From assembly GCA_022841645.1 (NCBI GenBank), contig JALHRC010000002.1:1-36845 (forward strand): a DNA stretch of 36,845 nucleotides, read 5' to 3'. Of this stretch, positions 6,101 to 35,540 are shown piece by piece. The notes under the pieces were generated by a model, which saw only the letters and a list, made by a program, of their open reading frames with translations, ran no database searches and was not told where the DNA came from. Position 1 is the first letter of the stretch. Each line of letters starts with the position of its first letter. A program made the translations under genes and the position numbers. The DNA is from Minisyncoccota bacterium. GTDB lineage: Bacteria > Patescibacteriota > Minisyncoccia > Phycocordibacterales > UBA918.

Positions 6101-9100
6101 TACGTTTGCGTATCTCACTTCAGGGGCTTAATGTGGCGCTACCTACCAGTACAGAACGCTTTAAGTTGCAGTACGCTGAGGGCCTTACTTGTAGCCCTTC
6201 GCTCTCTTGGGCCGATGTTGGTAGCCCAGCTTCTACTACGGCCCTGTTCCGCGGGGTTGAGAATTCGATTGTTGGTAGTGATTGGTACAGTGCCGCATGG
6301 CCGCGTCGCGTCAAAATCACCGTTGACGACTCGGTGGTTGAAGATGACGTAACAAATTTTCCGGTATATCTCGACCTTTCGGTACTGCCGGCTGCTTTCT
6401 TTGATTCCGTTCAGAGTGACGGCGATGATATTCGGATTACTACTTCTGACGGAGTTACCGAACTACCGTACGAGCTCGTTTCGATAAATACTGGTACGGA
6501 TACCGGAGAACTTCATTTTAAGGCCACCATGGGGTCAACAACCGATAGTGAGTTTTATATTTACTACGGAAACGGCAGTGCGAGTGGTTACGCAGCGAGT
6601 GCTACCTACGGCGCTCAAAATGTCTGGACCAACAGCTACTCGATGCGCCATGCCCTGGACGATAACCCCACGACCGCCAGTCCGCAATTCCGCGATAGTA
6701 CCAGTAACAGCAACGACGCTGTTGCTTACTCGGGCATGACGGCCGGTGACGTTGTGGCGGGAAAGATTGGCAGTGCCATTGATCTCGATGGCAATGATGG
6801 CGGTACGTTTGAAACAGCACTAGCTTTTGCTGGGCAGTTTACCGCTTCGATGTGGTGGCGTGCCTCAACGACTGGTGGTGGGGACGGCAATGGTTTTGCA
6901 ATTGCCGGACCGGCGGGTGCGAATGAAAAAATGGGTCCGTGGAATACACCCGAGGGTACTGTCTTTGTGCGCACCAGTACTGCATCATCGGATAATACTG
7001 CGACTCATCCCGCGGACCGAACATGGACATATGTAGTGCTTACTCGTGACAGCAGTAACGTCGTACGACTCTTCCTAAATGGCACGACTACTACACTCTA
7101 TGGCGGAGCGGCCCAAACTGGCACGTCTGATTGGATTAACTTCGGCGGCGAAACTACCCAAGGCTTTGAAGGGCAACTTGACGAACTGCGTTTTGCGACA
7201 ACTCGACGTAGCGCGGGGTGGATTTCTACTGAATACAATAATCAATCCAACCCTCAGGGATTCTTTTCGGTATCTGCAGAAGAGCTTATTGGTGATGGCC
7301 GACGGCTTCCTAGTACTGTGCTAACGGGCTCTGATTATCGCGATACTTACGAAGAAGAGAATCCTACTCAACTAAACCAAAACCAAATTGAAGTCGGCAG
7401 CGACGCGGAGTGGGACTTTGTGCTGGAGAATCACGCCGCCCTCCCAAACACCAACTATTGCTTCCGGCTTGTATATGATGACGGGGCTACCTTCAATACG
7501 TACACTAATTACCCGCGGCTCATTACCAATTCGCCACCGCTTACTCCAATAGTAAGTGCGCCGTTTGACAACGAACGACTGGCTTCCACCACCCCATGGT
7601 TTGACTTTGCGGCTGATGATGAGCTCGAAGACCTCGTCTCGTACGAAATAGAAATTGACGATTCGGCTGATTTTAGTTCCCCGGTAGTGGCTCGTAATTC
7701 AGTTGACCACTTTGCACTCTTCACTAACATTGCTAGTCCATCCGAACGTAGTCAATACACGAGCGGCCAAACTATTCGTTTTATTCCCGCTACAGCGCTC
7801 TCCAATAATACGACTTACTGGTGGCGAGTGCGGGGTCGTGATGATTTTGGTTCCAACACGTTTGGTCCATGGTCGACACCACAGAGTGTCACGGTTGCTA
7901 CGGGTACAACTATTACCACTTGGTTCCAGACGACCGGTGAACAGTTTTTGACTAACGAATTAGCCGACGGATCGGTTTCAACGAGTACAAACGATGTGGG
8001 TATAGCGAGTGGTTTTACCATCGCTACTATAACGTCAACAGTCATCGACTACGACGATCGTGATACTGGTAATGCTTGGGGTGAACTGTCTTGGACTGAT
8101 AACGAGTCGTCGGGGGTGATTGATTATTATGTTGAATACAATACTGGCGGTGGAGTCTACGCGCTCGTGCCCGACAGTGCCCTTCCTGGGAATAGTAGCG
8201 GCTTTAATACGTCTCCGATTTCGCTCATTGGACTTAATACTACAACGTACAATGAGCTTCGGATTCGTGCCGTACTTTCCGGCAATAGCACGCTACCACG
8301 TCTTTTGGATTGGACAGTCACCTGGGGGCTGACGATTGAGGCGCCGATACGAGTGCGACCCTTTGATAATGAAAAGGTTGCAACTACTACACCCGCTTTT
8401 ACCTTCTATACGAGTGACCCGCAGGCACAAGACTTGCAGTACGAACTTCAGCTATCCAGTTCTAATAGTTTCACTTCGTCGACCACATTTCTTTCTGGTG
8501 TAGACGCTGGGTTCACCAACACCGCCTCTTCAACTGATACTTCGCCGTATCTGAGCGGTAACACCATTCGATACCGAGCACAGTCGCCACTAACAAACGG
8601 CTTGACCTACTGGTGGCGCGTCCGAGCCCGAGATCCGGGTGGTTCAAATACCTGGAGTGAGTATTCTGAGCCGCAGAGCTTTACCATCGACACTGCACTC
8701 TCAGTATCAGCGTGGTTCCAGACGACGGGTGAGCAGTTTTTGACTGGTGACACCGCTGATGTTGAAGCAACCGCTGGAGCGGCTCAAATCACCTCTACCA
8801 TCAGCGAAGTTCTGATGGCCTACGGTGAGGGGACAGGTCAAGCCCCGCGGTATCGAATCTGGGACGGTACCGCATGGGGCAGTGCCGGTACGGCTGAAAG
8901 CGTCGGTGCGCAAGTGCGGTACACCAGACTAAAGGCGTCACCAACTAGACCAGAGTATGCACTGGGAACTACCGGCACCGACAATGATGTCAATGTCCAA
9001 ATTTATAATAGCGATAGCGATACCTGGGGCAATGTACTTGAACTCCATAACAACGTTGTTGATCCGGAAAAACGAGCATTTGATCTAGCATACGAGACGG

Positions 9101-12100
9101 ACTCGGGTGATCTGTTGGCCGTTTCGTGTTTTGGTACAGACGCAGTTTCCGCAATTTGGAACGGTACCTCCTGGTCGGCGACAAGCTCAATTAATTTGGT
9201 GAACACAAACAACTGTGAATGGGTACTGATGGCATCTGATCCAACGAGCGACGAGATCATTGCGGTATTCCGTCACACGGTAGCGGCTGGCGTAGACTAC
9301 GAGGCGCGGGTATGGAATGGTTCGTCTTGGACCAGTACCACCACCCTCGGTGATTTGGTTGAAAACGCCTCAGAGGGTATGGCTCTGGCGTATGAGGAGT
9401 CTGGTAATCAGGCGGTGCTCGTGATGTCAACGAGCTCGGTAACGCAAGCAACGGCCCTCTACTTCACGACTTGGAACGGGAGTGCGTGGAGTACTCCCAC
9501 CAGTAGTGATCTGGGGGACCACATTGAGTTTGCTACGTTGCGCGCCGATGTTGGCACCGACCGCTTGGCATTGTGTTACAACGACAACGACAACGATGGT
9601 GGGTTTAAGTTGTGGGATGGTTCGGCGTGGCAAAGTTCGTTTACCGAAGTCGAGCCTGCCGATGTTAACGATCGTACGGGTCGACCGGTCGACTGCGCCT
9701 TTGAAACAACGGCCGGCCTCGATGGCGACCTTATCGTGGCCTACTCCGACACCTTGAATGTGTTCTACCGTGTCCATAACAGCAGTACGAGCGCAGAATT
9801 TGCCGTAACTACACTCACTGACTCATTTGAGCTCGAAATGGTGCGCGGTGGCAACGGTACACTGCATCTATCTGCGTACGATGACGCCGCAGCGACCGGA
9901 GACGACATCAATGCTACGTACCGTAATGGCGGGTCGTGGAATTCGCCTACCAGCATCACACTCAATTCATCGCTTGACGGTAACACGCCGTACATTGGCG
10001 GGTCGAGTATGGCTGCGCAAATATATCCGAACTTTGTTAGCGGCTCGATCCGGTCGACAGCGATTGACTTTAATGACGGTGATGGGCCACGCTGGGAGTC
10101 AGTATCATGGAACGATACGACACCAGGTGCGAGTACGATTGAATACCGAGTGTACTACCTCGCTTCCACTTCTCAGTATGCCCTGATTCCCGATAGTGCT
10201 TTGCCGGGTAATAGCGCCGGCTTCACCACCAGTCCAATCGACATCTCGGCACTTGACCGCACGGTGTATGAGGTACTCAAGCTCGATGCACAATTTATCT
10301 GTGATGCTGGTGACTGTCCTACGTTAAACGATTGGACGGTGGCTTGGGCCGAGGGCATCACCGTCTCTGGAGTAGCTCGTGAGTTTGACGGGATAGCCAC
10401 TACCACCTCCGGAACCGTTGCTGTCGCAGTAAATGGCGAGTTACAAGTCGGTAAAACCGGCAGCATCACCGCTTCAGGAACGTGGTCAATCGCCAACGTG
10501 ACTGCGTTTGCTGGTGACGCACTGACGGTGTGGGTCGATGGCGCAACGGATGCCAACGAAGCGGTCGCGGTCACTACCTACGATGGCATTGGTAATGCAA
10601 GCAACCTGGAATTAACCAAGCGTCACCTCACCATTGGAAGTGACGATAGTGCTACCACCACGAACGCAGGGTTTGCCGGTTACGATAATGCGGACGATGA
10701 AGACATATTCTTTACGGTAGGAGTAGGCAACGCTTTGGTTGTGTGTGCTGAAGCAGTGTGTGCTGATGGTCGTCTCAAGATTCGCAGTGGTGCCATCTAC
10801 CAACCTGATGCTGCCGTGACCACCCACGACTTCAGTAATTTTGGAACGTTTAGACCCGCCTCAACGACAGTACGGGTCTCGGGCTCCTGGAGTCAACAGG
10901 GAAGCTTTGTTGAAGACACGTCAACGATCATCTTTACCGCCACTTCAGGAGCTGAATCAATAACGGCAACTGGCACGACTGCCCAATTTTATAATTTGAG
11001 CATCGGTGAATCAGGCAGTAGCACCGGCACGCACAATCTCACTCAGGCGCTGAGTGTTCTAAATACACTGAATATCGCAAATGGTACGTTGTCGCGCGGA
11101 ACATCAAGTATCAGCATTTCTGGCAACTTCACTATTGGTGTTGGCGGCAATATGTCGGGACTTGGAACCACCACGTTTACTGGTTCAGGTAGTCATACCT
11201 GGAGTGACGCGAAGGCGACCAGTACGAATGTCGGTTATGCCGTGATTGATGGGACTGCCAAGACTATTACGCTTGGGGGTAGCGTGGCTGCTCAGTCCGT
11301 CACGATTGGTAGTGACGATACATTCAATGCGTCAGGTTCAGGCTACAACATTACGGTGTATGGTGGCTGGATTAATAATAATTCCTTTATCCCCCAAAGT
11401 GGGACGGTTACGTTTGCTGGTACTTCTTCAGCCGTAATTGCTCGCGGTACCTCAGCCTTTAACAATCTGACATTTAATGGTGCGGGCGGGTCGTGGTCCT
11501 TCTCAACGTCGACACTCGTACTCAATGGTTCCTTGACTATTGCGACAGGAACAGTAACGCTACCTACCGGCACAACCACGATCGCGGGCTCGTTTACCAA
11601 TTCCGGTGGCACGTTCCTTCACAATAATGGTGAGGTACGCATGACTTCGACGGTCGCTGGGCGGACTATTTTACAAAACGGCACGGTCTTCAATAATGCC
11701 TTTTATGATCTTGTTTTCACTGGTTCAGGGTCATGGACGTATAGCGGCACTGGTACCACCTCACGACATATGCGCATCACTGCCGGCACTGTAACCTTCC
11801 CTGGTAGTACGCTCACGGTTGGTGGAGATCTACTTACTTCTGGTTCAGGTGCCTTTGCGCACAATAATGGTGAGGTTATCTTGTTGGTACAAGATAGTAA
11901 TAGTGTTACGACTAATGGGTCATCGTTTAACCATGTACGTACGCGAGGTGCGGCGTCAGGTTCGTGGTACAACGATGCCTGGGACTACCGAATTCCAATT
12001 ACGATTCAAGAGGCACAGATTGATGGCGACCTCAGTAACTTCCCGGTCTACCTCAACTTGGATGACTTACCAAGCGGCTTCTGGTCGGCAGTGCAAGGAG

Positions 12101-22972: not shown

Positions 22973-24295
22973 ATGGCGAAGCCACTTATCGTGTGTCGAG
23001 ATCTTTCGATTATCTACAACAAGGGTAAATCGAATGAATTTAAAGCGCTTACGGGCGTCAACACTGATATTTTTGAGGGTGAATACATCATCCTCTTCGG
23101 CCCCTCTGGTTGTGGCAAGTCAACCCTCATGTATTCCATCCAAGGCTCGCTTCCGCCGGGTGAAGGAACGCTCCTTATTCGTGGGGATGACATCTACTCG
23201 TACCCACCATCAGAACGGGTGTATTTCCAGCGCTACGTGATGGGTATCATTTTTCAGTCGTTCAACCTGATTGGTTCGCTATCAGTGCTCGACAATGTCG
23301 CTCTCCCGATGATTTTCTGTAACTCTGATAAAATAACGCGCAACCGTCGTGCGCAGTCACTACTTGACCGTTTTGGAGTTGGCCACGTCTCGCATAAAAT
23401 CCCGGCCATGCTCTCGGGAGGGCAGCAACAGCGCGTGTCGGTGGCTCGTTCGATGGTGAATGATCCTAAAATTCTCTTGGCCGACGAACCAACCGGTAAC
23501 CTTGACTCAGTTTCTACACAGCAGGTGATGGATAAAATTGATGAAATTAACACCTTCGACCGCCGCACCATCATCATGGTGTCACATAATGCGGCTCACC
23601 TTTCATATGCTCACCGCGTGTACTACCTCAAAGATGGCCGAATTATCCGTGAAGTGGTAAACCCACAACGCAAGCAAATTAAGCCAGTGCGGGAAGGGGA
23701 GACCATTGTCACCGAGCTCGAGCAGTTGGCGCGACTCTACCCGTATGATTCCATCGACACGCTGCGGGTGAAGAGTATGGTAAATTTCCTTACCCAAACA
23801 CTCACTTTTGACCAGATAGTTCGTCTCGAACACGCTACTGAGCTGTTTATTAAGGGTAAGGTAGATAAGGAAGCGTTTATAAAGTCACTCAGCTTGCCGT
23901 TTGAACGCGGTGGAGTCGAGATTCCCGAGACGCAGGCCCGAAAAATGGCTGTTATGGCAGATCGCATGATCCACCAAGCTGATGACATCAGACGTTTTCG
24001 TGCCAAAAAGGACAACGCCGGTGTGTTTTTCAGTCAGCACAAACTCGCTGAGCGTTTGCGTGATCACTTACTGCAGGCGTATCGACTCAAGCTTAATAAG
24101 GAGCAGGACGATCACTTAGTAGAAATGATCGCCGACCGGGTAACGGGCGTATCCGAGGACAATGAATTTAATGAGCGCCTTATGGTAACCGTAAAGAACG
24201 GCGGTTTGGGGCTGGCGGAAAGCGAGGCTGATGATCTCACACGGTACTTTGAAAAAATTATCGCCCAAGGAGTGGACGTAAGCTACAAAAATTAG
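22973..24295 (+). CDS. ABC transporter ATP-binding protein (MacB/LolD-type) with ~200-aa helical C-terminal extension
   Basis: Walker A GPSGCGKST, signature LSGGQQQRVSVARS, Walker B ILLADEPTG, H-loop VSHN; AGAGGA upstream of ATG. Confidence 0.95.
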   Translation: MAKPLIVCRDLSIIYNKGKSNEFKALTGVNTDIFEGEYIILFGPSGCGKSTLMYSIQGSLPPGEGTLLIRGDDIYSYPPSERVYFQRYVMGIIFQSFNLIGSLSVLDNVALPMIFCNSDKITRNRRAQSLLDRFGVGHVSHKIPAMLSGGQQQRVSVARSMVNDPKILLADEPTGNLDSVSTQQVMDKIDEINTFDRRTIIMVSHNAAHLSYAHRVYYLKDGRIIREVVNPQRKQIKPVREGETIVTELEQLARLYPYDSIDTLRVKSMVNFLTQTLTFDQIVRLEHATELFIKGKVDKEAFIKSLSLPFERGGVEIPETQARKMAVMADRMIHQADDIRRFRAKKDNAGVFFSQHKLAERLRDHLLQAYRLKLNKEQDDHLVEMIADRVTGVSEDNEFNERLMVTVKNGGLGLAESEADDLTRYFEKIIAQGVDVSYKN

Positions 24296-24296
24296 T

Positions 24297-25505
24297 ATGC
24301 GCGTGCAAGACTTGGCTCAGCTTTCTACCCGTATGTTTAAGACTAACCCACTTCGTACGTGGCTCACTATTCTTGGTATGGGAGTGGGCACGGGTGCAGT
24401 GGTAGTGCTTGTGGGTTTAGGTTTTGGACTACAAAAGATCATCCTTGAACAGATCGTGTTCGGTGAGACGCTACTTTCACTGGGTGTCTCAGCCACCGGC
24501 GCTCAGGGACTCACACTCACCAGCGAAACACTCACTGATTTTGAAAATATGGATGAAGTGCTTGACGCCTCGCCGTTAGCCCGTTTTCCGGCTCTAATAA
24601 CGTACAAGGGTCTTACCGGGAATGTTTTTGTGCAGGGTGTAGAGCCGCCCTACCTACGTTATGCGGGTATTGCAGCGAGCGCTGGTACAGCCTTTACCGA
24701 TGAAGATGCCGGCGACGCGAATTCGATTATGCTTTCGCCGGCAGTTTTAAAACTTTTCGGTATTGATGAACCCGATGAATTTATTGGTGAGCGTGTTTCC
24801 TTGCGGCTTTTGGTACCGGCAGACGACGGCACTGATGTCATTAATGAAGTAATTATCGATAAAGAATATACGGTGCGTGGTGTGACTAAAGAAGAGGGTG
24901 TACTTAATGCCATGATGATGATGCCGGAATTGCGTAATTATGTTGGCATTGAGGAATTTGAACGTATTCAAGTGCGGGTGGATACCAATCAAAATCTACC
25001 CATCGTTGAAGAGCGGCTCATCGGTCTTGGTTACCGGGTAAGTGCTCTTTCTAAGACTGTCGAGCAGGCCTCCAAGATTTTCCAAGGAGTGCAAGCGGTA
25101 CTAGCGACATTTGGCGGCATTGCACTCCTCGTTTCTGCTATTGGTATGTTTAACACCATGACAGTAACGCTCCTTGAACGGACGAAGGAAATTGGCATTA
25201 TGCGCACTCTGGGAGCCTCACCAAATGACGTTAAATATCTCTTCGTGTCTGAATCGATCGTTGTAGGCTTTATGGGGGGCGTCAGTGGTATCGTGATGGG
25301 GGTATCCTTAGGTGTGGCTGTTAATGTTTTTCTCAATCTTCTCGCTAGTCAATTCGGTGGTCAGGCAGTTGCTCTGTTTTCCTTTCCGCTCACGTTTTTA
25401 TTGTTCATCGCTCTCTTCTCCGCGGCAGTGGGGTACCTTACTGGTATCTTTCCAGCCCGTCGAGCCTCTAAACTGAATCCACTCGACGCCATTCGTTATG
25501 AATAG
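24297..25505 (+). CDS. ABC transporter permease (MacB/FtsX family)
   Basis: MacB-like N-terminus (NPLRTWLTILGMGVGTGAVVVLVGLG), FtsX core (ALLVSAIGMFNTMTVTLLERTKEIGIMRTLGAS..), end FPARRASKLNPLDAIRYE; one nt after the ATPase stop. Confidence 0.95.
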   Translation: MRVQDLAQLSTRMFKTNPLRTWLTILGMGVGTGAVVVLVGLGFGLQKIILEQIVFGETLLSLGVSATGAQGLTLTSETLTDFENMDEVLDASPLARFPALITYKGLTGNVFVQGVEPPYLRYAGIAASAGTAFTDEDAGDANSIMLSPAVLKLFGIDEPDEFIGERVSLRLLVPADDGTDVINEVIIDKEYTVRGVTKEEGVLNAMMMMPELRNYVGIEEFERIQVRVDTNQNLPIVEERLIGLGYRVSALSKTVEQASKIFQGVQAVLATFGGIALLVSAIGMFNTMTVTLLERTKEIGIMRTLGASPNDVKYLFVSESIVVGFMGGVSGIVMGVSLGVAVNVFLNLLASQFGGQAVALFSFPLTFLLFIALFSAAVGYLTGIFPARRASKLNPLDAIRYE

Positions 25506-27468: not shown

Positions 27469-27508
27469 AAAGCAACAGCCACTGTTATCCAACAGTGGCT
27501 GTTGCTTT
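27469..27508. terminator. Perfect 18-bp inverted repeat, 4-nt loop (probable bidirectional terminator)
   Basis: aaagcaacagccactgtt(27469-27486) atcc aacagtggctgttgcttt(27491-27508), shortly after the stop of the 25590 gene. Confidence 0.85.
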
Positions 27509-27531
27509 ATGCTGGCAACGTTTGCGATAAT
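27502..27531 (+). promoter_or_regulatory. Candidate promoter overlapping the terminator 3' arm
   Basis: TTGCTT (27502-27507), 18-bp spacer, GATAAT (27526-27531); ATG at 27544 gives a leader of only a few nt. Confidence 0.45.
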
Positions 27532-27543
27532 AGTGTATCTCTC

Positions 27544-28503
27544 ATGAAGCTCTTCTGTGCACAATGGAGGCAGGCTTTTAGTTGCTTGTTGTTCTTATTT
27601 ATTCTGTTTGTGCCAGAGCTGGCTTCTGCCAGTTTTGGCATTACCCCACCGTATGTTCGCAATACCAGTCTGACGCGCAATACCACCTATGAGCAACAAA
27701 TCCTTCTTGTTCGTGGTGATCCCAGTATTCCTCTGCGTGCACAAATAATTGTTGATGCCCCGGAAATTGCTAGTTGGATTGAAATCGTTGAGGGTACATC
27801 GGTGCCGCTTCCGCGGGGGGAGCAAAAGGTTCCTATGACTGTGCGCGTTAAAGTTCCCAGTGATGCTGAGTTTAAGGATTACGAAGGTATCATTCGTATT
27901 CGCACCGTGCCTGATACTGACGCGGTTAATGCAGGTGCGGTAAATATTTCACTCGGTGCTCAGGTAAAAATTGATCTTAGTGTGATTGACCGGGTGATCG
28001 AAGACTTCCGCATCCGTAAAGTGTCGCTGTCGGACCTCAATGAGGGTAGTAAGTTGGCGTGGCTCTTCTTCCCAGGAAAGATCCGCTTCGGCATGTTGCT
28101 TGAGAATACCGGGAATGTTGACATTGCTCCCTCACGAGTGGAGTTTAAAATTTACGACTTTGCTGGAAATGTTCTCTTGGAAGAAACACGCAACCTCGGG
28201 AAAATTACCAAAGTGGCACCGTATGCTACCGAGGAGGTGATTGCTGAATTGCCCACCCGTCTCCCTGAAGGTAACTACTTTGTGCGCTTCAGTATATTTA
28301 ACGGTGACGAGTTCAAGCATGGCGGAGAGCTCAATATGTCTATTCTTCCATACGGAACACTCGAAGCAGCGGGCTTTGGGTTCATGGGACTGTCTTTCAT
28401 GCACAAGCTGTCTCTTTTGATACCACTCTTTACGCTCGTCATACTTGTCCTGTATGGCCTCTATAACGTCCGTGAGCGTAGACGACGTACTTCGCGTGCG
28501 TAG
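27544..28503 (+). CDS. Secreted, C-terminally membrane-anchored protein, DUF916/DUF3324-like (WxL-interacting-protein-like) architecture
   Basis: Signal peptide from MKLFCAQWRQAFSCLLFLFILFVPELASA; ectodomain FGITPPYVRN...LRAQIIVD...KVPSDAEFKDYEGIIRIRT...; second domain LLENTGNVDIAPSRVEFKIYDFAGNVLLEE...LPEGNYFVRF; C-terminal TM then RERRRRTSRA. ORF track start 27502 judged too early. Confidence 0.8.
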   Translation: MKLFCAQWRQAFSCLLFLFILFVPELASASFGITPPYVRNTSLTRNTTYEQQILLVRGDPSIPLRAQIIVDAPEIASWIEIVEGTSVPLPRGEQKVPMTVRVKVPSDAEFKDYEGIIRIRTVPDTDAVNAGAVNISLGAQVKIDLSVIDRVIEDFRIRKVSLSDLNEGSKLAWLFFPGKIRFGMLLENTGNVDIAPSRVEFKIYDFAGNVLLEETRNLGKITKVAPYATEEVIAELPTRLPEGNYFVRFSIFNGDEFKHGGELNMSILPYGTLEAAGFGFMGLSFMHKLSLLIPLFTLVILVLYGLYNVRERRRRTSRA

Positions 28504-28506
28504 TTT

Positions 28507-29613
28507 ATGCGTCTCGCTCTTATCATTGCCGCACTTTCAATCGTGTCGGTCCCGCTCGTTACGAGCGGAGCCACTATAGCAACTACCACCACATCACTGT
28601 CAGTAAGTATTTGCGGTAATTCTATCGTTGATGATGGCGAACAGTGTGACGTACCTGGTGAGACGGGTGTCTATAGCACAACCATCACGGGACGACAGTG
28701 CAATGCCGTGTGTTCATTTGGTCCATACTGTGGAGATGGTATTTTGCAAACTACCTATACCGAAGAGTGTGACGACGGCAACAACGACAACGCTGACTTT
28801 TGTTCAGCTACCTGCAAAATTGAGCCAGCAGGCTCGGGTGGCGGCGGCGCCTCCGGCGGTGGCTCGGGTGGCGGCGGTGGCTCTAGTCGTGACCTTGGTG
28901 AATCGCAAATTAGTATTTCAGGGCGTGCTTACCCTGGTCGAACTATTAACATCCTGCTTGATACAGAGTCAGTGGGATCAGTGCAGGCTGATTCGCAAGG
29001 TCGTTTTGAATTTACAACTGATGCCTCACCTGGCACAGCTACGCTTGGTATTTGGGCAAACGATAGTAGTGGTACCCGTTCGATTACGCTCAACTCTACC
29101 TTTGACGTTACTCAAGGAGCAATCACTAACGTTAATGGACTGATACTGCCTCCCACCATTCGCGTTTCCAACACCAATCCAAATCCTGGTGACACCGTCA
29201 CAGTAAGTGGGCAGTCAATCCCGAACGCACGAATTGAAGTACAGGTAGGTAGTGGTGCACGCACGCTTACGGCGAGCTCATCGCCGGCGGGGCAATGGCA
29301 GGCAACACTAAATACTTCCGGATTGTCGGCCGCTGAGTACACCTTGCGGGCTCGTTCCCTGAGCGGTAGTGGGTCACTTTCCGGTCAAAGTAATTTTAGT
29401 AGTGCCATTCAACTCTTCTTGGGAGTAGACGGTGAGGCGGCCGCCCCTTCAGACCTCAACCGTGACAATAAAATTAACTTAACAGACTTCTCAATCCTCA
29501 TTTTTTGGTGGGGAACTAACGGTGGTGATTCAAATCCGAGTGCAGACATAAATGGAAATGGTCGTGTTGCACTCGAAGATTTTTCGATTTTACTTTTTAA
29601 CTGGTCTGGCTAA
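28507..29613 (+). CDS. Secreted protein with DUF4215-like Cys-rich repeat, Gly/Ser linker, Ig-like repeats and C-terminal dockerin-like domain
   Basis: CGDGILQTTYTEECDDGNNDNADFCSATC; GSGGGGASGGGSGGGGGSS; C-terminus DLNRDNKINLTDFSILIFWWG...ADINGNGRVALEDFSILLFNW (paired Ca-loop motifs). Confidence 0.9.
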   Translation: MRLALIIAALSIVSVPLVTSGATIATTTTSLSVSICGNSIVDDGEQCDVPGETGVYSTTITGRQCNAVCSFGPYCGDGILQTTYTEECDDGNNDNADFCSATCKIEPAGSGGGGASGGGSGGGGGSSRDLGESQISISGRAYPGRTINILLDTESVGSVQADSQGRFEFTTDASPGTATLGIWANDSSGTRSITLNSTFDVTQGAITNVNGLILPPTIRVSNTNPNPGDTVTVSGQSIPNARIEVQVGSGARTLTASSSPAGQWQATLNTSGLSAAEYTLRARSLSGSGSLSGQSNFSSAIQLFLGVDGEAAAPSDLNRDNKINLTDFSILIFWWGTNGGDSNPSADINGNGRVALEDFSILLFNWSG

Positions 29614-29657
29614 CACAAATTTTGTGTATAACTCACGCGTGTGCACGAGTAACCGCG

Positions 29658-29663
29658 TAGAAT
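29658..29663 (+). promoter_or_regulatory. Candidate -10 (TAGAAT) ahead of the structured leader
   Basis: TAGAAT 7 bp before the 5' arm of the closing stem; no convincing -35. Confidence 0.3.
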
Positions 29664-29669
29664 GAAGTT

Positions 29670-29882
29670 GTATCTGCTACGGAGGTGAACAATTAGTGTC
29701 ACTGCATCGCAGTCGCGAGCGATGGATGCTTCAGCCGAGTGTTACGTCGCAGATACGTTTACGGTTTATTTCGGTAGGTTGGTGTGGAGACCGTCCTAGC
29801 GAGGGAGTAATCCCAAATTCTGTTCTACGTGGTGTGTCGCGCACTCAAAGACCAGACCGTAGGCTAACAACGTAGAGAAACC
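29670..29882 (+). ncRNA. Structured 5' leader candidate of the 29883 surface-protein gene
   Basis: gtatctgc(29670-29677)/gcagatac(29749-29756) perfect 8-bp closing stem; inner catcgc(29705-29710)/gcgatg(29719-29724) stem; further ctacg..cgtag and gtgtg/cgcac pairings downstream; no credible ORF. Confidence 0.5.
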
Positions 29883-31028
29883 ATGAGTACAACGAGAACC
29901 TCGTTCTCGTTGCTCCAAGCTACTGCTTTGATTGCAATTCTGGCGACCATTTTATGGTCAATTGGATTGTCATCATTCCGCTACGCGGAAGCAGCAAATG
30001 TCACGTCGTTTAGCGACACCCTGAGCGATTCAGCACCAAGTGTCGTTTCAAACCACACCCTCACGTTCAATACTCCAAACGGAGTAGCGGCAGGAGGTAC
30101 AATTGTTATCACGTTCCCAGGCGGCTTCGGAGGAATCACCGGCATCGATTTTGGAGATATTGACCTCGCGGTCAACAGCTCTGACGTCACTCTTGCTGGA
30201 AGTCCATCTGGCGCTACATGGGGAGCAACCACCACTGCTACCACGATTACGCTCACAAGCGGATCTGGTACGATCGCGAGCAGTGCGACGGTTACAATTG
30301 AAGTGGGAACAAACGCTACGTTTGGTACTACTGGAGACGAGCGCATCACTAATCCTGGTGTAGGTTCGTATGAAATCAATGTTGCCGTTGGGACCCTCGA
30401 TGGTGGCGCTACCCGCGTTGCTATCTTAAGTCCAGTAGAGGTAACTGCTTCAGTAGACACCATTCTAGAGTTTGAAGTAAACGGTCTCGGGGAAGGAAAT
30501 ACCATCAACAGTACAACCACCACCGGTTCATCATCGGCCACCGCCATTCCATTTGGTGAGTTGCAAGCTGGTGTAGCAACTACGGTTGCGCAAGAATTGA
30601 TAGTGTCGACAAACGCAAGTAACGGCTTTGTCGTTACCGTGCAAGTTGACGGCCAACTCGTTTCAGCTACTGGAGCTGACATCGACGGCTTTATCGAGGG
30701 CGCGTACACTAGTACACCAACTCTGTGGCAAGGACCAGTGCCCTCTATCGGGAACGAAGAAACCTATGGACACTGGGGTATAACCACAAATGATGATTCA
30801 GTAGGAGTTGGACTGACCGACCTCTTCGGTGTCGGTGGTTCTGGCAACCGCTACGTCTCAGCCTCAACCACACCGGTTGAAGTATTTAGACACAACGGCC
30901 CAGCCGATGGTACTAGCCCTAGCATCGGACAGACCGAAGTGGGCTACCAGATCCAGATTTCGTCGCTGCAAGAGGCGGGTGACGACTATAGCGCTACGCT
31001 GACATACGTAGCAACGCCAGTGTTCTAA
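29883..31028 (+). CDS. Secreted surface protein (381 aa), possible S-layer or abundant envelope protein
   Basis: N-terminal hydrophobic/signal segment; beta-rich S/T/G-rich body; C-terminus IPFGELQAG...LIVSTNASNGFVVTVQ...GDDYSATLTYVATPVF. Confidence 0.9.
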   Translation: MSTTRTSFSLLQATALIAILATILWSIGLSSFRYAEAANVTSFSDTLSDSAPSVVSNHTLTFNTPNGVAAGGTIVITFPGGFGGITGIDFGDIDLAVNSSDVTLAGSPSGATWGATTTATTITLTSGSGTIASSATVTIEVGTNATFGTTGDERITNPGVGSYEINVAVGTLDGGATRVAILSPVEVTASVDTILEFEVNGLGEGNTINSTTTTGSSSATAIPFGELQAGVATTVAQELIVSTNASNGFVVTVQVDGQLVSATGADIDGFIEGAYTSTPTLWQGPVPSIGNEETYGHWGITTNDDSVGVGLTDLFGVGGSGNRYVSASTTPVEVFRHNGPADGTSPSIGQTEVGYQIQISSLQEAGDDYSATLTYVATPVF

Positions 31029-31061
31029 CGAGATCATAGGCTCTAAGCTTGGAGTTAACAC

Positions 31062-31097
31062 AAAAAACCCAATCTCCCACCACGAGGTGGGTTTTTT
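31062..31097. terminator. Rho-independent terminator
   Basis: cccacc(31076-31081) acga ggtggg(31086-31091) tttttt; flanking aaaaaa upstream makes it bidirectional. Confidence 0.9.
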
Positions 31098-31152
31098 GTT
31101 TCTAAAAAAGTGGTGTCCACAAAGCTAAAACTGATTTCATCGAGGGGCGGGG

Positions 31153-31158
31153 TATACT
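31153..31158 (+). promoter_or_regulatory. Candidate -10 (TATACT) for the cohesin gene cluster
   Basis: TATACT 12 nt upstream of ATG at 31171; implies a very short leader. Confidence 0.4.
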
Positions 31159-31170
31159 CTATACATAAAC

Positions 31171-32205
31171 ATGGCCAGATTACTCTGTGTGGTGTGTGGT
31201 GTACTCGTATGGTTTTCACCAACTGTTGCCGACGCTGCGAGTCTATATCTTGATCCCGCCTCCAGCACCATTAATCGTGGTGATTCTGTTACTGTGGCGA
31301 TCCGTGTCGATACTGATGAGGCCGCCGGTGAATGTATCAACGCCGTCGATGGCACCATCGTCTTTGATGACAGTATCCAGCCAGTTGACGTGTCGCTCGG
31401 ACAGTCGATCATCAGCCTGTGGGTGGAAGCTCCGGTCCTTGCCCCTGGCGCTCGTTCAATAAGTTTTGCGGGTGGAATTCCAAACGGCTATTGCGGACGC
31501 ATTGCTGGCGACCCACGGCTCTCAAATGTAATTGCTGAGGTGGTGTTTCGTTCGCCCGGACTACAAATTGGAGGTGGTGAGTCGGTAAACCAAGCCACGG
31601 TAAGTCTTAGAGAAGATTCGGCCGTGTATCTCAATGACGGAGCAGGTACCAAGGCTACACTTTCTCTCTATCCTGCTGTCATCTATCTCTCGCCCGGCGC
31701 TGGCTCTACTATCAATGACACCTGGCGAACTGCAGTTCAAAATGACTCGACCCCACCACAAGAATTCAGCATCACCTTGGGGCAATACGGCTCGTCATTT
31801 AACGGGCAATATTTCATTGAGTTTAATACCACTGATAAGGAAACTGGCCTGAGCCATTACGAAGTAATGGAAGAAGCTTCTGGAGAGTTTGCTCGTTTTC
31901 GCTGGGGCCGCACTGACGCACCGTGGGTAGCGGCACGTAGTCCGTATGTTCTTAAGGATCAGTCACTGAATTCTGTTATTTTGGTGCGTGCCATTGACAA
32001 AGCAGGTAATGAATACGTGGCAACATTAATTCCAGAGGAATCCCTCCGTACGATCTCTCGTGAGCGGCTTCTTATGGTAGGAATTGCCGTTGCTTCGCTC
32101 ATGGTACTAATTGCAGTTGTCGTGCTTTCACTGTGGTGGTACCGCCGCCGCATGCGGGGTAGTGAGGATAATGTAGTCACCCCGCAGTCACCAGATCACG
32201 TATGA
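31171..32205 (+). CDS. Cohesin-like domain protein with C-terminal TM anchor (344 aa)
   Basis: Signal peptide; ASLYLDPASSTINRGDSVTVAIRVDTDE...INAVDGTIVFDDSIQPVDVSLGQSIISLWVEAP...ISFAGGIPNGY; C-terminal TM LLMVGIAVASLMVLIAVVVLSLWWYRRR. Confidence 0.85.
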   Translation: MARLLCVVCGVLVWFSPTVADAASLYLDPASSTINRGDSVTVAIRVDTDEAAGECINAVDGTIVFDDSIQPVDVSLGQSIISLWVEAPVLAPGARSISFAGGIPNGYCGRIAGDPRLSNVIAEVVFRSPGLQIGGGESVNQATVSLREDSAVYLNDGAGTKATLSLYPAVIYLSPGAGSTINDTWRTAVQNDSTPPQEFSITLGQYGSSFNGQYFIEFNTTDKETGLSHYEVMEEASGEFARFRWGRTDAPWVAARSPYVLKDQSLNSVILVRAIDKAGNEYVATLIPEESLRTISRERLLMVGIAVASLMVLIAVVVLSLWWYRRRMRGSEDNVVTPQSPDHV

Positions 32206-33986
32206 GTAGCTCCTTGGTGAACTCTTGGCACTCAAGAGGTGCAAAGTATACAGTTCTTTCACTCGCAGTCATTTTTTGGTGTGCCAGTAGTAGTCTTGCC
32301 TATGGCGCGAGTCTTTCGATATCACCAGGAACTGGTGTGTACACGACCGGAGCCAGCTTTACGGTGGCAGTAGTCGTAAATACTGAGGGTGAGTCAGTCA
32401 ACGCCGCTGAAGGAACTATCAGCTTTAATCCACGCGAACTATCGGTGGTGTCGGTAAACCGCTCTAGTTCTATTTTTAGTCTGTGGGTGACCGAGCCAAC
32501 CTTTTCAAACAGTGCTGGTACTATTAGTTTTAGTGGCGGTTCGCCTGGTGGATACAAAGGTGGTGGTGGCACTGTAATGTCGATAACTCTGCGTGCAACT
32601 AATGCTGGTACTCCGAAGTTGTCATTTACCTCAGGAGCTGTACTAGCAAATGACGGCCGGGGTACTAATGTTCTCTCAGGAATGAAGGGGGGCACGTATA
32701 CTATAGGCGCAGCTACCAGCGCTCCTGCCCCAGAAGTCATTGAGTATGTAGCTCCCGCCAACACTCCCCGAGCACCTCGCGTTACCTCTTCAACTCACCC
32801 TGATGAACGCCTATGGTATGCAAAGAACGAAGCTGCGCTAGCTTGGGAGTTACCTTCCGGAGTTACTGCGGTACGCACGTTACTAGATAGGTCGCCTAGT
32901 ACTATCCCCACAAAAGTGTACGATCAGCCGCTCCGTAATATTACGCTCAGTGACCTACCCGATGGTGTTTCTTATTTTCATGTTCAATTTCAGAATGCAG
33001 ACGGCTGGGGAGGTGTCACCCATTATCGGCTAGCAGTAGACCGTGACCGGCCTACGTCACTTATACTCTCACTCCCTGAGGGCGCTGACTTGAATAACCC
33101 TGCTCAGACCCTGATCGCCACCGCGGTTGATGCAACGTCTCGTATACTGCGTTACCGAGTGCGGATTGACGCCACTGAACCTTTTGATGTTGAGGACAAA
33201 GAAGCTACTGGGCGTATCGTCCTGCCCGCGCTGCCACCTGGATATCACACGGCAATTATTGAGGCTTTTGACGAGGCAGGTAATAGCATTATTGAGTCAA
33301 TCTCTTTCACGACCGTAGCGTTTGCTGCCCCCGTCTTTACCGCTTACCCAGAGGAGCTCAATGCAGGGGTGATTCCGGTAATCCGTGGTACCACTAGGGC
33401 TAGTTCTACGGTCGTTGTCACACTCACGCCGCTCGGTGCTGATTTTCGGGAGTACACTGTACGCAGCGATAGTGAAGGCAATTTTACTTTTATCCCCGAG
33501 CAGGCACTTGGTACTGGTGTCTATGAGCTTTCTGCCCGTGCAACCGACAGCTATGGTGCCCAAAGTGATACATCAGTGCCGGTCCGAATTGCTGTACAAG
33601 AGCCTGGTCTCCTGCGCATCGGAACTTTTCTCGTGAGTGTGATGTCAATCGTTCTTTCACTTCTCGGCTTACTTATACTCACGATAATGGGCACGCTCTA
33701 CACACTTCGCTATGTGCGCCAATTCCGCCGACGTTTGACCATAGAATCAAAGGAAGTTAGTGCTATGGCGCGCCAAGAATTTGCCACTTTACGTAAAGCT
33801 ATTTCCCAGTACGAAGTTGATCTGCTTGATGGTAGGCGAGGTGGTAAACTTACCCGGGCTGAGTCAGCGATGCTGGAAGATTTTCAGTCCCTTCTTAGCA
33901 CTGCCGAACGTCGGGTAGAGAAGGAGGCAGCTGACGTTGAACATTTAGCTGAGGGTACCTCGTCGCGCACCACTAATCGTAAGTAA
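32202..33986 (+). CDS. Cohesin-like domain + Fn3/Ig-like protein with TM and cytoplasmic coiled-coil tail (594 aa)
   Basis: SLSISPGTGVYTTGASFTVAVVVNTEGESVNAAEGTISFNPRELSVVSV...SLWVTEP...ISFSGGSPGGY...; TM FLVSVMSIVLSLLGLLILTIMGTLYTL; K/E/R-rich tail. ATG overlaps the TGA of the preceding gene (ATGA). Confidence 0.9.
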   Translation: MSSSLVNSWHSRGAKYTVLSLAVIFWCASSSLAYGASLSISPGTGVYTTGASFTVAVVVNTEGESVNAAEGTISFNPRELSVVSVNRSSSIFSLWVTEPTFSNSAGTISFSGGSPGGYKGGGGTVMSITLRATNAGTPKLSFTSGAVLANDGRGTNVLSGMKGGTYTIGAATSAPAPEVIEYVAPANTPRAPRVTSSTHPDERLWYAKNEAALAWELPSGVTAVRTLLDRSPSTIPTKVYDQPLRNITLSDLPDGVSYFHVQFQNADGWGGVTHYRLAVDRDRPTSLILSLPEGADLNNPAQTLIATAVDATSRILRYRVRIDATEPFDVEDKEATGRIVLPALPPGYHTAIIEAFDEAGNSIIESISFTTVAFAAPVFTAYPEELNAGVIPVIRGTTRASSTVVVTLTPLGADFREYTVRSDSEGNFTFIPEQALGTGVYELSARATDSYGAQSDTSVPVRIAVQEPGLLRIGTFLVSVMSIVLSLLGLLILTIMGTLYTLRYVRQFRRRLTIESKEVSAMARQEFATLRKAISQYEVDLLDGRRGGKLTRAESAMLEDFQSLLSTAERRVEKEAADVEHLAEGTSSRTTNRK

Positions 33987-33996
33987 ATTCTGTCAT

Positions 33997-34674
33997 ATGA
34001 CCACACGTCTTTGGGTAATTACCGCCGTCACCGCAGTACTTTTGGGTTCTATTGCTGGTGGGCTCGTAGGATCATTTGTTGTAAATGACCGCCTCGATGA
34101 GGCGCGTTCGGCCGCGCTGGTTGATATCGCTGATCAGCGTACGGTCATGCAGTCCCTTTCGGAGGTGATGGCGCGCGGGGGAGCCGATACAATTACCGAG
34201 GCCGTTATTAAAGATTGCGAACCAGCTGAGCGCCAACGTTTTGATGCCTTACTCGGTAAACTAAGCGCCACCATTAGCCGCGCCGAACTAGTCGAGCTGT
34301 CACGACTTTTTGATCGCTGCGCTTATTTTTACGCTCGCCAGAAGGCAGTTATGGCGGCACGGTTAACGCGTGAGGTGGATGTTTACAAACTTCTCATAGA
34401 CCGTCTCAAGCGTCTTGAGCCAACAGCAGACCCCGCGACGTTTTCTGAGACCGTCTGGGATGAATTAGCGAAGCTAGAGCGTGAACAGAGCCGTTATTTT
34501 AACGACTTAGTCTCTATCCAGGGTAAAATTATTTCTGCTATGGTAAATGGAGCTCAAGCCACTTCACCGGAGCTCGATGCATTACGTAAGGAAGCGGGCG
34601 AGGCTCAAGAAATGCTCACCTTCAATGCCATTCAAATGAATGAACAGCGCACTAGCCTGCCCGGCAGCCTCTAA
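33997..34674 (+). CDS. Membrane-anchored helical/coiled-coil protein of unknown function (225 aa)
   Basis: N-terminal TM (VITAVTAVLLGSIAGGLVGSFVV), then helical charged sequence; tightly packed in the cohesin gene run. Confidence 0.8.
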   Translation: MTTRLWVITAVTAVLLGSIAGGLVGSFVVNDRLDEARSAALVDIADQRTVMQSLSEVMARGGADTITEAVIKDCEPAERQRFDALLGKLSATISRAELVELSRLFDRCAYFYARQKAVMAARLTREVDVYKLLIDRLKRLEPTADPATFSETVWDELAKLEREQSRYFNDLVSIQGKIISAMVNGAQATSPELDALRKEAGEAQEMLTFNAIQMNEQRTSLPGSL

Positions 34675-34680
34675 TCGGAC

Positions 34681-35448
34681 ATGTGGAAGCACTTCCAAAC
34701 ATGGTGGAATGTACTAACTGGCCGCTCCGATCGAGGGCCGGTGCGGTACATGTTTCCATTCGTGATTGGCATAGCGACCTTTTTGAGCGCGGCATCTCTC
34801 AATTCGGTCGAGTACTCTTACATCAGAGTTTCTCCTTCTGATACTACCCTAGAAATTGGTGAGCGTTTTTCGCTTGATATCTATGCCTACGCACACCAAC
34901 CTGTCAACGCTGTAGATATATCGGTCGCTTACTCTGATAGTGCGGTCAAAATCTTAGGCGTCGACACCGGTCAGTCGGTAATTACACTCTGGACGGAAGA
35001 GCCAGCCGTCAAAAACGGTGCAATTACATTGCGCGGGGGAACCTTTCAGCGTGGTTTTCGTGGGGAACACCTCGTTGCTACAGTAAACGTCGAAGCTAAG
35101 CAGGCTGGGCAAGCAGAATTCTTTATTTCGAACGTCCAGCTACTGGCTGGCGACGGCCGCGGCACCCCAGTTCTTACGGGCAAGCCGTCACTGAGTCGAG
35201 CCGACGTTAAAGTGGTGACAGAAACCAGTGAAGATGAAGGCGTTGCTAGCCTTGAGGCCAATGTGACCCTACTTATTGTTACGGATATTGACGGTGATGG
35301 GAAGGTTAGTCTGCGCGACGTAACTGCCTTTTTGAGTGCCTGGCACAGTCGTGATTCTGTTTATGACTTTAACAGTGACGGCAAAATGACGTTTCGTGAT
35401 TTTGCCATTATTCTCTCGGACTCATTTTTTGGAGCTAGGCCACGATAA
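34681..35448 (+). CDS. N-terminally anchored protein carrying both a cohesin-like and a C-terminal dockerin-like domain (255 aa)
   Basis: VSPSDTTLEIGERFSLDIYAYAHQPVNAVDISVAYSDSAVKILGVDTGQSVITLWTEEP...LLAGDGRGTPVL; DIDGDGKVSLRDVTAFLSAW...YDFNSDGKMTFRDFAIILSDSF. Confidence 0.9.
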   Translation: MWKHFQTWWNVLTGRSDRGPVRYMFPFVIGIATFLSAASLNSVEYSYIRVSPSDTTLEIGERFSLDIYAYAHQPVNAVDISVAYSDSAVKILGVDTGQSVITLWTEEPAVKNGAITLRGGTFQRGFRGEHLVATVNVEAKQAGQAEFFISNVQLLAGDGRGTPVLTGKPSLSRADVKVVTETSEDEGVASLEANVTLLIVTDIDGDGKVSLRDVTAFLSAWHSRDSVYDFNSDGKMTFRDFAIILSDSFFGARPR

Positions 35449-35521: not shown

Positions 35522-35540
35522 ACGCACATCTAATGTGCGT
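35522..35540. terminator. Hairpin with 8-bp perfect stem, 3-nt loop, weak T-tract
   Basis: acgcacat(35522-35529) cta atgtgcgt(35533-35540) then acttttgctt; 20 nt before the next start codon. Confidence 0.5.

Follow-up and report, generated by a model that had tools for sequence, protein, structure and literature searches.

A probable non-cellulosomal cohesin–dockerin anchoring operon of Patescibacteria

Dockerins and cohesins pair like a plug and a socket and are known chiefly from complexes that digest cellulose; the locus described here raises the question of what such modules do in a member of the Patescibacteria. The stretch of DNA analysed (the window, C2:1-36845) is 36,845 nucleotides of contig JALHRC010000002.1 (C2) from a draft Minisyncoccota genome (1,116,385 bases, 56 contigs, 97.9% complete), and the genome-wide statements made below are based on profile searches of that genome. 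The locus encodes a dockerin protein, Doc1 (gene 28507; genes are numbered by their first position), two cohesin proteins, CohA (31171) and CohB (32202), and CohC (34681), which combines both domains; the four open reading frames (28507-29613, 31171-32205, 32202-33986, and 34681-35448) are all intact. The nearest named relatives of the CohB gene belong to metagenome-assembled genomes (MAGs) labelled Patescibacteria, Kaiserbacteria, Paceibacterota, and Parcubacteria (best identity 60%), which places the genome on the Paceibacteria/Parcubacteria side of the phylum, probably near Kaiserbacteria. We consider it likely that the locus is a non-cellulosomal cohesin–dockerin anchoring operon of Patescibacteria.

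Cohesin and dockerin domains of the locus

A preliminary description of this DNA had noticed three cohesin-like domains with a common motif, and, as judged from profiles and models, CohA, CohB, and CohC do encode true cohesins. The motif is real, as N-A, S, L-W, P, G-G, and D-G-x-G-T columns are invariant in the cohesin alignment (A1), and 'LA.DGRGT.VL' is present in two of the proteins (CohB and CohC), its counterpart in CohA being 'LNDGAGT'. Against the Pfam Cohesin family (PF00963, cut-off 24.1 bits), CohB lay near the threshold (24.0 bits in hmmscan and 27.1 bits in a genome-wide frame search) and a cohesin encoded on contig C20 of the same genome scored 39.2 bits, while the Pfam scan gave no PF00963 match for the cohesins of CohA and CohC. 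To guard against circularity, new cohesin hidden Markov models (HMMs) were built from relatives, each time excluding the class under test; they recognised CohA, CohB, and CohC with E-values of 1.5e-19, 9.4e-37, and 8.3e-24, respectively (at a database size of 100,000). The AlphaFold2 model of CohA had a mean predicted local distance difference test (pLDDT) score of 92.2, and nearly all of its best 50 structure matches in the PDB were cohesins (from E 9.8e-11). The cohesin part of CohC was modelled at pLDDT about 83-93, and 49 of its best 50 matches were cohesins (top E about 1e-8), the sole other one being a CLIPPER domain; identity to the listed structural matches of the cohesins was 7-17%. 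The profile of CohB grouped with those of the CohA and CohC cohesins, and in a search of PDB sequences it mostly retrieved the immunoglobulin-like (Ig; Big) domain of this protein rather than its cohesin. In a FastTree phylogeny of cohesin domains, the CohA, CohB, and CohC groups were separate (support was 1.0 for CohC, and for CohB it was weak basally and reached 0.93 at most among the inner nodes), and on this sequence evidence we regard them as long-standing.

Doc1 and CohC each end in what the sequence indicates to be a true dockerin with two Ca-loops, and the earlier observations of two such domains and of a cohesin and a dockerin together in CohC were borne out by profile and class-excluded HMM matches. 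Against PF00404 (cut-off 22.9 bits), the Doc1 dockerin reached 28.9 bits and that of CohC lay near the threshold (22.5 bits in hmmscan, 25.0 bits in the genome search); an HMM derived solely from Doc1-type dockerins found the CohC dockerin (E 6.6e-6), and the converse search gave E 1.1e-5. Both loops (F-hand pattern DxNxDxxxxxxD) are complete in the two proteins, with Asn at position 5 of the second loop of Doc1. Positions 3 and 5 are also conserved in relatives, which were selected by a pattern requiring Asp at loop positions 1 and 12; Ca2+ binding is predicted from the loop residues. The best dockerin match in the PDB was 2y3n_B (E 1.9e-11), and the CohC profile retrieved EF-hand proteins first and dockerins next among PDB sequences. 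Chance similarity, considered for both families, was ruled out by the class-excluded HMMs and the structure search. The two dockerin types differ at recognition positions and in their internal duplication, the halves being 58% identical in Doc1 versus 34% in CohC dockerins. Highly similar halves are a trait of dockerins with dual binding modes (entries such as 2vn5).

Searches of the whole genome revealed five cohesins and four dockerin proteins, located in the window and on contigs C20 and C6. The locus had been taken for a self-contained set, which holds for the features of the window and not for the whole complement of the genome: on contig C20, a CohB-like gene (L008 65-1612) and the gene of a 652-aa dockerin protein (L008 2144-4102) flank an HSP20-like gene, and contig C6 encodes a second small protein with both domains (L009 9844-10566). 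Each of the five cohesin genes encodes one cohesin only, and CohA and CohB are therefore better called receptors or anchors than scaffoldins; of their earlier designation as transmembrane (TM)-anchored scaffold candidates, predicted TM helices uphold the anchoring part only.

One alternative is an enzyme complex resembling a cellulosome, or what is left of such a complex. It would be built from the same two domain families, and these are indeed found in enzyme complexes in other candidate phyla (PMC8542988). However, no enzyme domain was recognised on any of the four dockerin proteins of the genome, and none of its five cohesin genes encodes a scaffoldin. Moreover, the cargo of 66 dockerin proteins, nearly all from relatives, consists of Ig domains (Dockerin_1 in 58, Big_6 in 53, DUF4215 in 20, and Big_13 in 15), the only catalytic enzyme domain being one polysaccharide deacetylase, and the strict conservation of the genes speaks against a vestige. 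The absence of dockerin enzymes and of a scaffoldin from the genome led us to reject this reading, in agreement with the earlier remark that the assembly is not a classical cellulosome; we regard it as highly improbable.

Gene order across Patescibacteria

The conservation survey covered 59 searched genomes; gene neighbourhoods were compared in relatives and at 80 loci belonging to named genomes. On sequence evidence, the dockerin gene, CohA, and CohB constitute a conserved operon across many Patescibacteria lineages. In close relatives, the order is a 27502-type gene, the dockerin gene, a 29883-type gene, CohA, CohB, a gene of a 225-aa protein, and CohC. Outside this group, neither CohC nor the 225-aa gene is retained, and what remains is a core of the dockerin gene, CohA, and CohB, often preceded by a 27502-type gene; this core was found in Wolfe-, Magasanik-, Falkow-, Uhr-, Nealson-, Portnoy-, Komeili-, and other bacteria. 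A co-directional dockerin gene lies upstream in 54 of the 55 loci with at least 3 kb of upstream sequence (52, plus L136 and L172, whose dockerin gene overlaps the chosen start), only L180 being without it, and no opposite-strand dockerin gene occurs among the 80 loci. In 41 of the 65 scored loci, the dockerin gene ends no more than 60 nt from the first cohesin gene. The operon was also present on a contig labelled Lokiarchaeota Loki_b32 (L165), which is probably a misbinned patescibacterial contig.

Among 286 genomes sampled from the class, 111 had cohesins and 113 dockerins (100 both, 162 neither), and in the phylum sample cohesins were present in 112 of 287 genomes, i.e., 39% in both samples. 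Binding of dockerins by the cohesins would be in keeping with this co-occurrence and with synteny. A single dockerin gene alongside at least two cohesin genes is common among the genomes, which is the opposite of a cellulosome. Runs of at least four clustered cohesin genes were seen at three places (G338:C1, G177:C7, and G136:C3), in genomes with one to four dockerin genes. The dockerin protein itself may be very large: in an order-level relative, a 5,194-aa protein with a C-terminal dockerin is encoded directly before CohA and CohB (L097 707-16291), and genome G271 has a dockerin protein within a 5,027-aa open frame.

Proposed anchoring and the place of CohC

Hydropathy indicates no TM segment in Doc1 beyond the signal peptide, and no other anchor was recognisable in it. 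By the same measure, CohA and CohB are predicted single-cohesin type I membrane proteins, with the cohesin placed N-terminally, away from the membrane helix, and CohB ends in a conserved cytoplasmic coil. As Doc1 is otherwise unanchored and both cohesin proteins are membrane-bound, capture of exported Doc1 by membrane receptors fits these features. Doc1 would be exported as an Ig-domain protein ending in a calcium-loop dockerin, which, when Ca2+ is present, would then be bound by the cohesin of CohA and/or CohB. The adhesin-like Doc1 (or the giant proteins of other lineages) would thereby be held on the external side of the membrane and coupled, through CohB, to the cytoplasmic coil.

CohC calls for a separate explanation. 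Its orthologues are confined to the closest relatives, and the N-terminal hydrophobic stretch of CohC-type proteins has no clear signal-peptidase site. In one relative (G032, 98% complete), searches up to E 1 found no more than a single cohesin and a single dockerin, both of them in the same CohC-like protein (L103 5939-6673), with which the cohesin of the C6 protein groups. If that draft is complete, the only possible partner of this dockerin is a protein of the same type, be it in cis or in trans. Most likely, and more tentatively than for the core, CohC-type proteins, which have a different recognition code, pair with their own copies and cluster at the membrane, a role that we favour over that of a main receptor of Doc1.

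The preliminary description had proposed that CohC chain-assembles, its dockerin plugging into the cohesin of the next CohC, or of CohA or CohB, to make a surface polymer or lattice. The presence of both modules in one protein, kept in all 18 aligned orthologues, agrees with this, as do the exclusive occurrence of such a gene in G032 and the second one on C6. On the other hand, an uncleaved N-terminal stretch would confine polymers to the plane of the membrane, and the CohC model has no ordered arrangement of the two domains. Chain assembly limited by the anchor is plausible, and the full proposal seems to us somewhat improbable; polymerisation is not the core function, because CohC orthologues are absent outside the closest relatives. 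We think it unlikely that CohC is instead autoinhibited, with its own dockerin filling its own cohesin in cis until displaced by a partner: the two modules do share a short chain in which the linker is poorly ordered, but this linker is short (about 20-30 residues) and the low-confidence model has no confident docking in cis. Cis, trans, and head-to-tail pairing are indistinguishable here, because the dockerin part of the model is poor.

Several points weigh against anchoring by the core genes and self-pairing of CohC. A cohesin without a detected dockerin occurs in 11 genomes and a dockerin without a cohesin in 13. The Fisher p-value for co-occurrence (6.6e-49 in the 286 class genomes) ignores shared ancestry and is descriptive only, because the counts of co-occurrence and synteny are phylogenetically non-independent. 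The CohC dockerin was modelled at low confidence (pLDDT about 56-62) with a disordered linker, and G032 is a draft MAG in which a gene may be missing. Binding, its Ca2+ dependence, topology, and location are all predictions, as is the choice of Doc1 among CohA, CohB, and CohC, and the topology comes from hydropathy and the CohA model only.

Accompanying genes, known systems, and significance

The features of the locus are listed in Table 1. The scan that found the two terminator-like hairpins gave a total only modestly above shuffled sequences.

Table 1. Features of the cohesin–dockerin locus in the window.
Feature	Position	Strand	Characteristics
27502-family secreted protein	27502..28503	+	Signal peptide, C-terminal TM; putative TTG start codon; no confident Pfam domain
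Doc1 dockerin protein	28507..29613	+	Signal peptide, Cys-rich repeat (DUF4215/TIGR02232), Gly-rich linker, Big_6 Ig domains, C-terminal dockerin
Doc1 dockerin domain	29443..29610	+	Two Ca-loops, DLNRDNKINLTD and DINGNGRVALED
Secreted 381-aa protein	29883..31028	+	N-terminal domain occurs fused to Ig-dockerin module in C20 gene
Terminator-like hairpin between 29883 gene and cohesin transcription unit	31076..31091	+	Consensus match only
CohA	31171..32205	+	Signal peptide, cohesin, second extracellular beta domain, C-terminal TM (predicted helix at residues 300-318, about 32068-32124), short basic tail
CohA cohesin domain	31237..31692	+	Profile HMM and structure match
CohB	32202..33986	+	Signal peptide, cohesin, Ig-like region, Big_13 (about 33375-33590), TM (predicted at residues 477-495, about 33630-33686), cytoplasmic coil of about 100 aa
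CohB cohesin domain	32307..32705	+	Profile HMM
225-aa protein	33997..34674	+	N-terminal TM helix, then charged, probably helical region; kept between CohB and CohC in closest relatives only
CohC	34681..35448	+	N-terminal signal-anchor, cohesin, C-terminal dockerin
CohC cohesin domain	34816..35190	+	Profile HMM and structure match
CohC dockerin domain	35275..35424	+	Two Ca-loops, DIDGDGKVSLRD and DFNSDGKMTFRD; recognition residues unlike Doc1
Terminator-like hairpin after CohC	35522..35540	+	Consensus match only

The dockerin protein of contig C20 combines the N-terminal domain of 29883 (BLAST E 1.6e-9; HMM 145 bits) with the Ig-dockerin module of Doc1 (E 1.4e-53), and the same kind of fusion was found in two other lineages (L149 and L190). 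Because the two are fused in C20, the 29883-type protein is probably a component of the same surface assembly as Doc1. It also shares a C-terminal domain (190.7 bits) with a neighbouring 2049-aa secreted protein (L010 1223-7372), and both proteins resemble the Pam pilin family NF058581 (CPR_Pam_pilin_C) weakly, with 20.7 bits for 29883 and 29.6 bits for the neighbour. The operon might thus build or anchor a pilus, with 29883 as a Pam-pilin-like subunit and the dockerin–cohesin pair fixing the base of the fibre to the membrane, an idea in line with the shared domain and the three fusions. Yet both scores are under the curated cut-off of 55 bits, our literature search found no paper on a Pam pilus, and 29883-type genes are missing from most loci outside the closest relatives, which makes a pilus doubtful in our view.

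The 27502-type gene usually lies directly upstream of the dockerin gene in relatives (family HMM, many loci). At L010, a domain of this family is fused to a LytR_C domain (8322-10025), adjoining a further 27502-family gene (7385-8392). Elsewhere in the window, positions 112-21138 encode a giant 7008-aa protein with Ig_Rha78A_N and DUF2341 domains, in which tests for the cohesin, dockerin, 29883, and 27502 families found none of them. A LolD/MacB-type ABC (ATP-binding cassette) transporter ATPase and an FtsX-type permease are encoded upstream of the locus (22973-25505), and several relatives have a multi-TM permease-like gene at the equivalent place.

As for known systems, the clostridial cellulosome type I and II pairs (1ohz, 2vn5, 2y3n) share with the locus the cohesin fold, the two-loop Ca dockerin, and its internal duplication, whereas here one dockerin often accompanies several single-cohesin TM receptors, and neither enzymes nor a multi-cohesin scaffoldin are seen. 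Non-cellulosomal modules of Clostridium perfringens (2w1n, 2vo8, 2jh2), among the best structural matches, likewise have a cohesin beside an Ig-like domain; they sit on glycoside hydrolases, while the cohesins considered here are TM-anchored and their partner is an Ig-domain protein. Other non-cellulosomal cases are a cohesin of Archaeoglobus (2xdh) and modules known from Omnitrophota (PMC10066038), Cloacimonadota (PMC8542988), and anaerobic methanotrophic (ANME) archaea, which live in close partnership with other microbes and for which an extracellular assembly was proposed (PMC9012536). Scaffoldin-like proteins of ANME carry up to 5 cohesins and the dockerins are located on ABC binding proteins (PMC9012536), in contrast to the fixed Doc-CohA-CohB operon. 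The eukaryotic TMEM132 proteins (PMC6030884) resemble CohB in that an extracellular cohesin precedes Ig-like domains, a single TM, and a tail in the cytoplasm; they have no known dockerin partner, and the likeness is one of architecture only. Clusters of WxL and WxL-interacting proteins (PMC10599100) also join secreted surface proteins with a TM-anchored partner. Their similarity to the 27502 and 29883 types is by eye only, and the suspected assignments (27502 as DUF916, 29883 as WxL) were dropped, as no Pfam match to either family was found.

These domains have probably been annotated already as single database hits, and a title and abstract search of the open-access literature, with incomplete coverage, found no paper treating them as a conserved system of the clade. 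The novelty seems to lie in a fixed operon, spread across the phylum, of one exported dockerin and two membrane cohesin receptors.

To our knowledge, it is poorly understood how Patescibacteria, with genomes of about 1 Mb, hold proteins on their surface, and the class has few cultured members. The operon provides a concrete, testable anchoring mechanism, and its distribution suggests that proteins are widely fixed to the surface in this way in these probable epibionts. The dockerin may serve as a handle for finding exported host-contact proteins, including giants of about 5,000 residues, and the operon may be a source of orthogonal small cohesin–dockerin pairs. A broader idea, which we hold tentatively and at slightly less than even confidence, is that of a general surface display system of Patescibacteria (about 4 in 10 sampled genomes, with a dockerin protein sometimes of 1,000-5,000 residues), in which one exported dockerin protein is clamped by a membrane receptor pair that continues into the cytoplasmic coil, and self-pairing of proteins of the CohC type adds lateral clustering. 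If this is true, host- or surface-contact proteins would be linked mechanically, and perhaps as a signal, to the interior of the cell.

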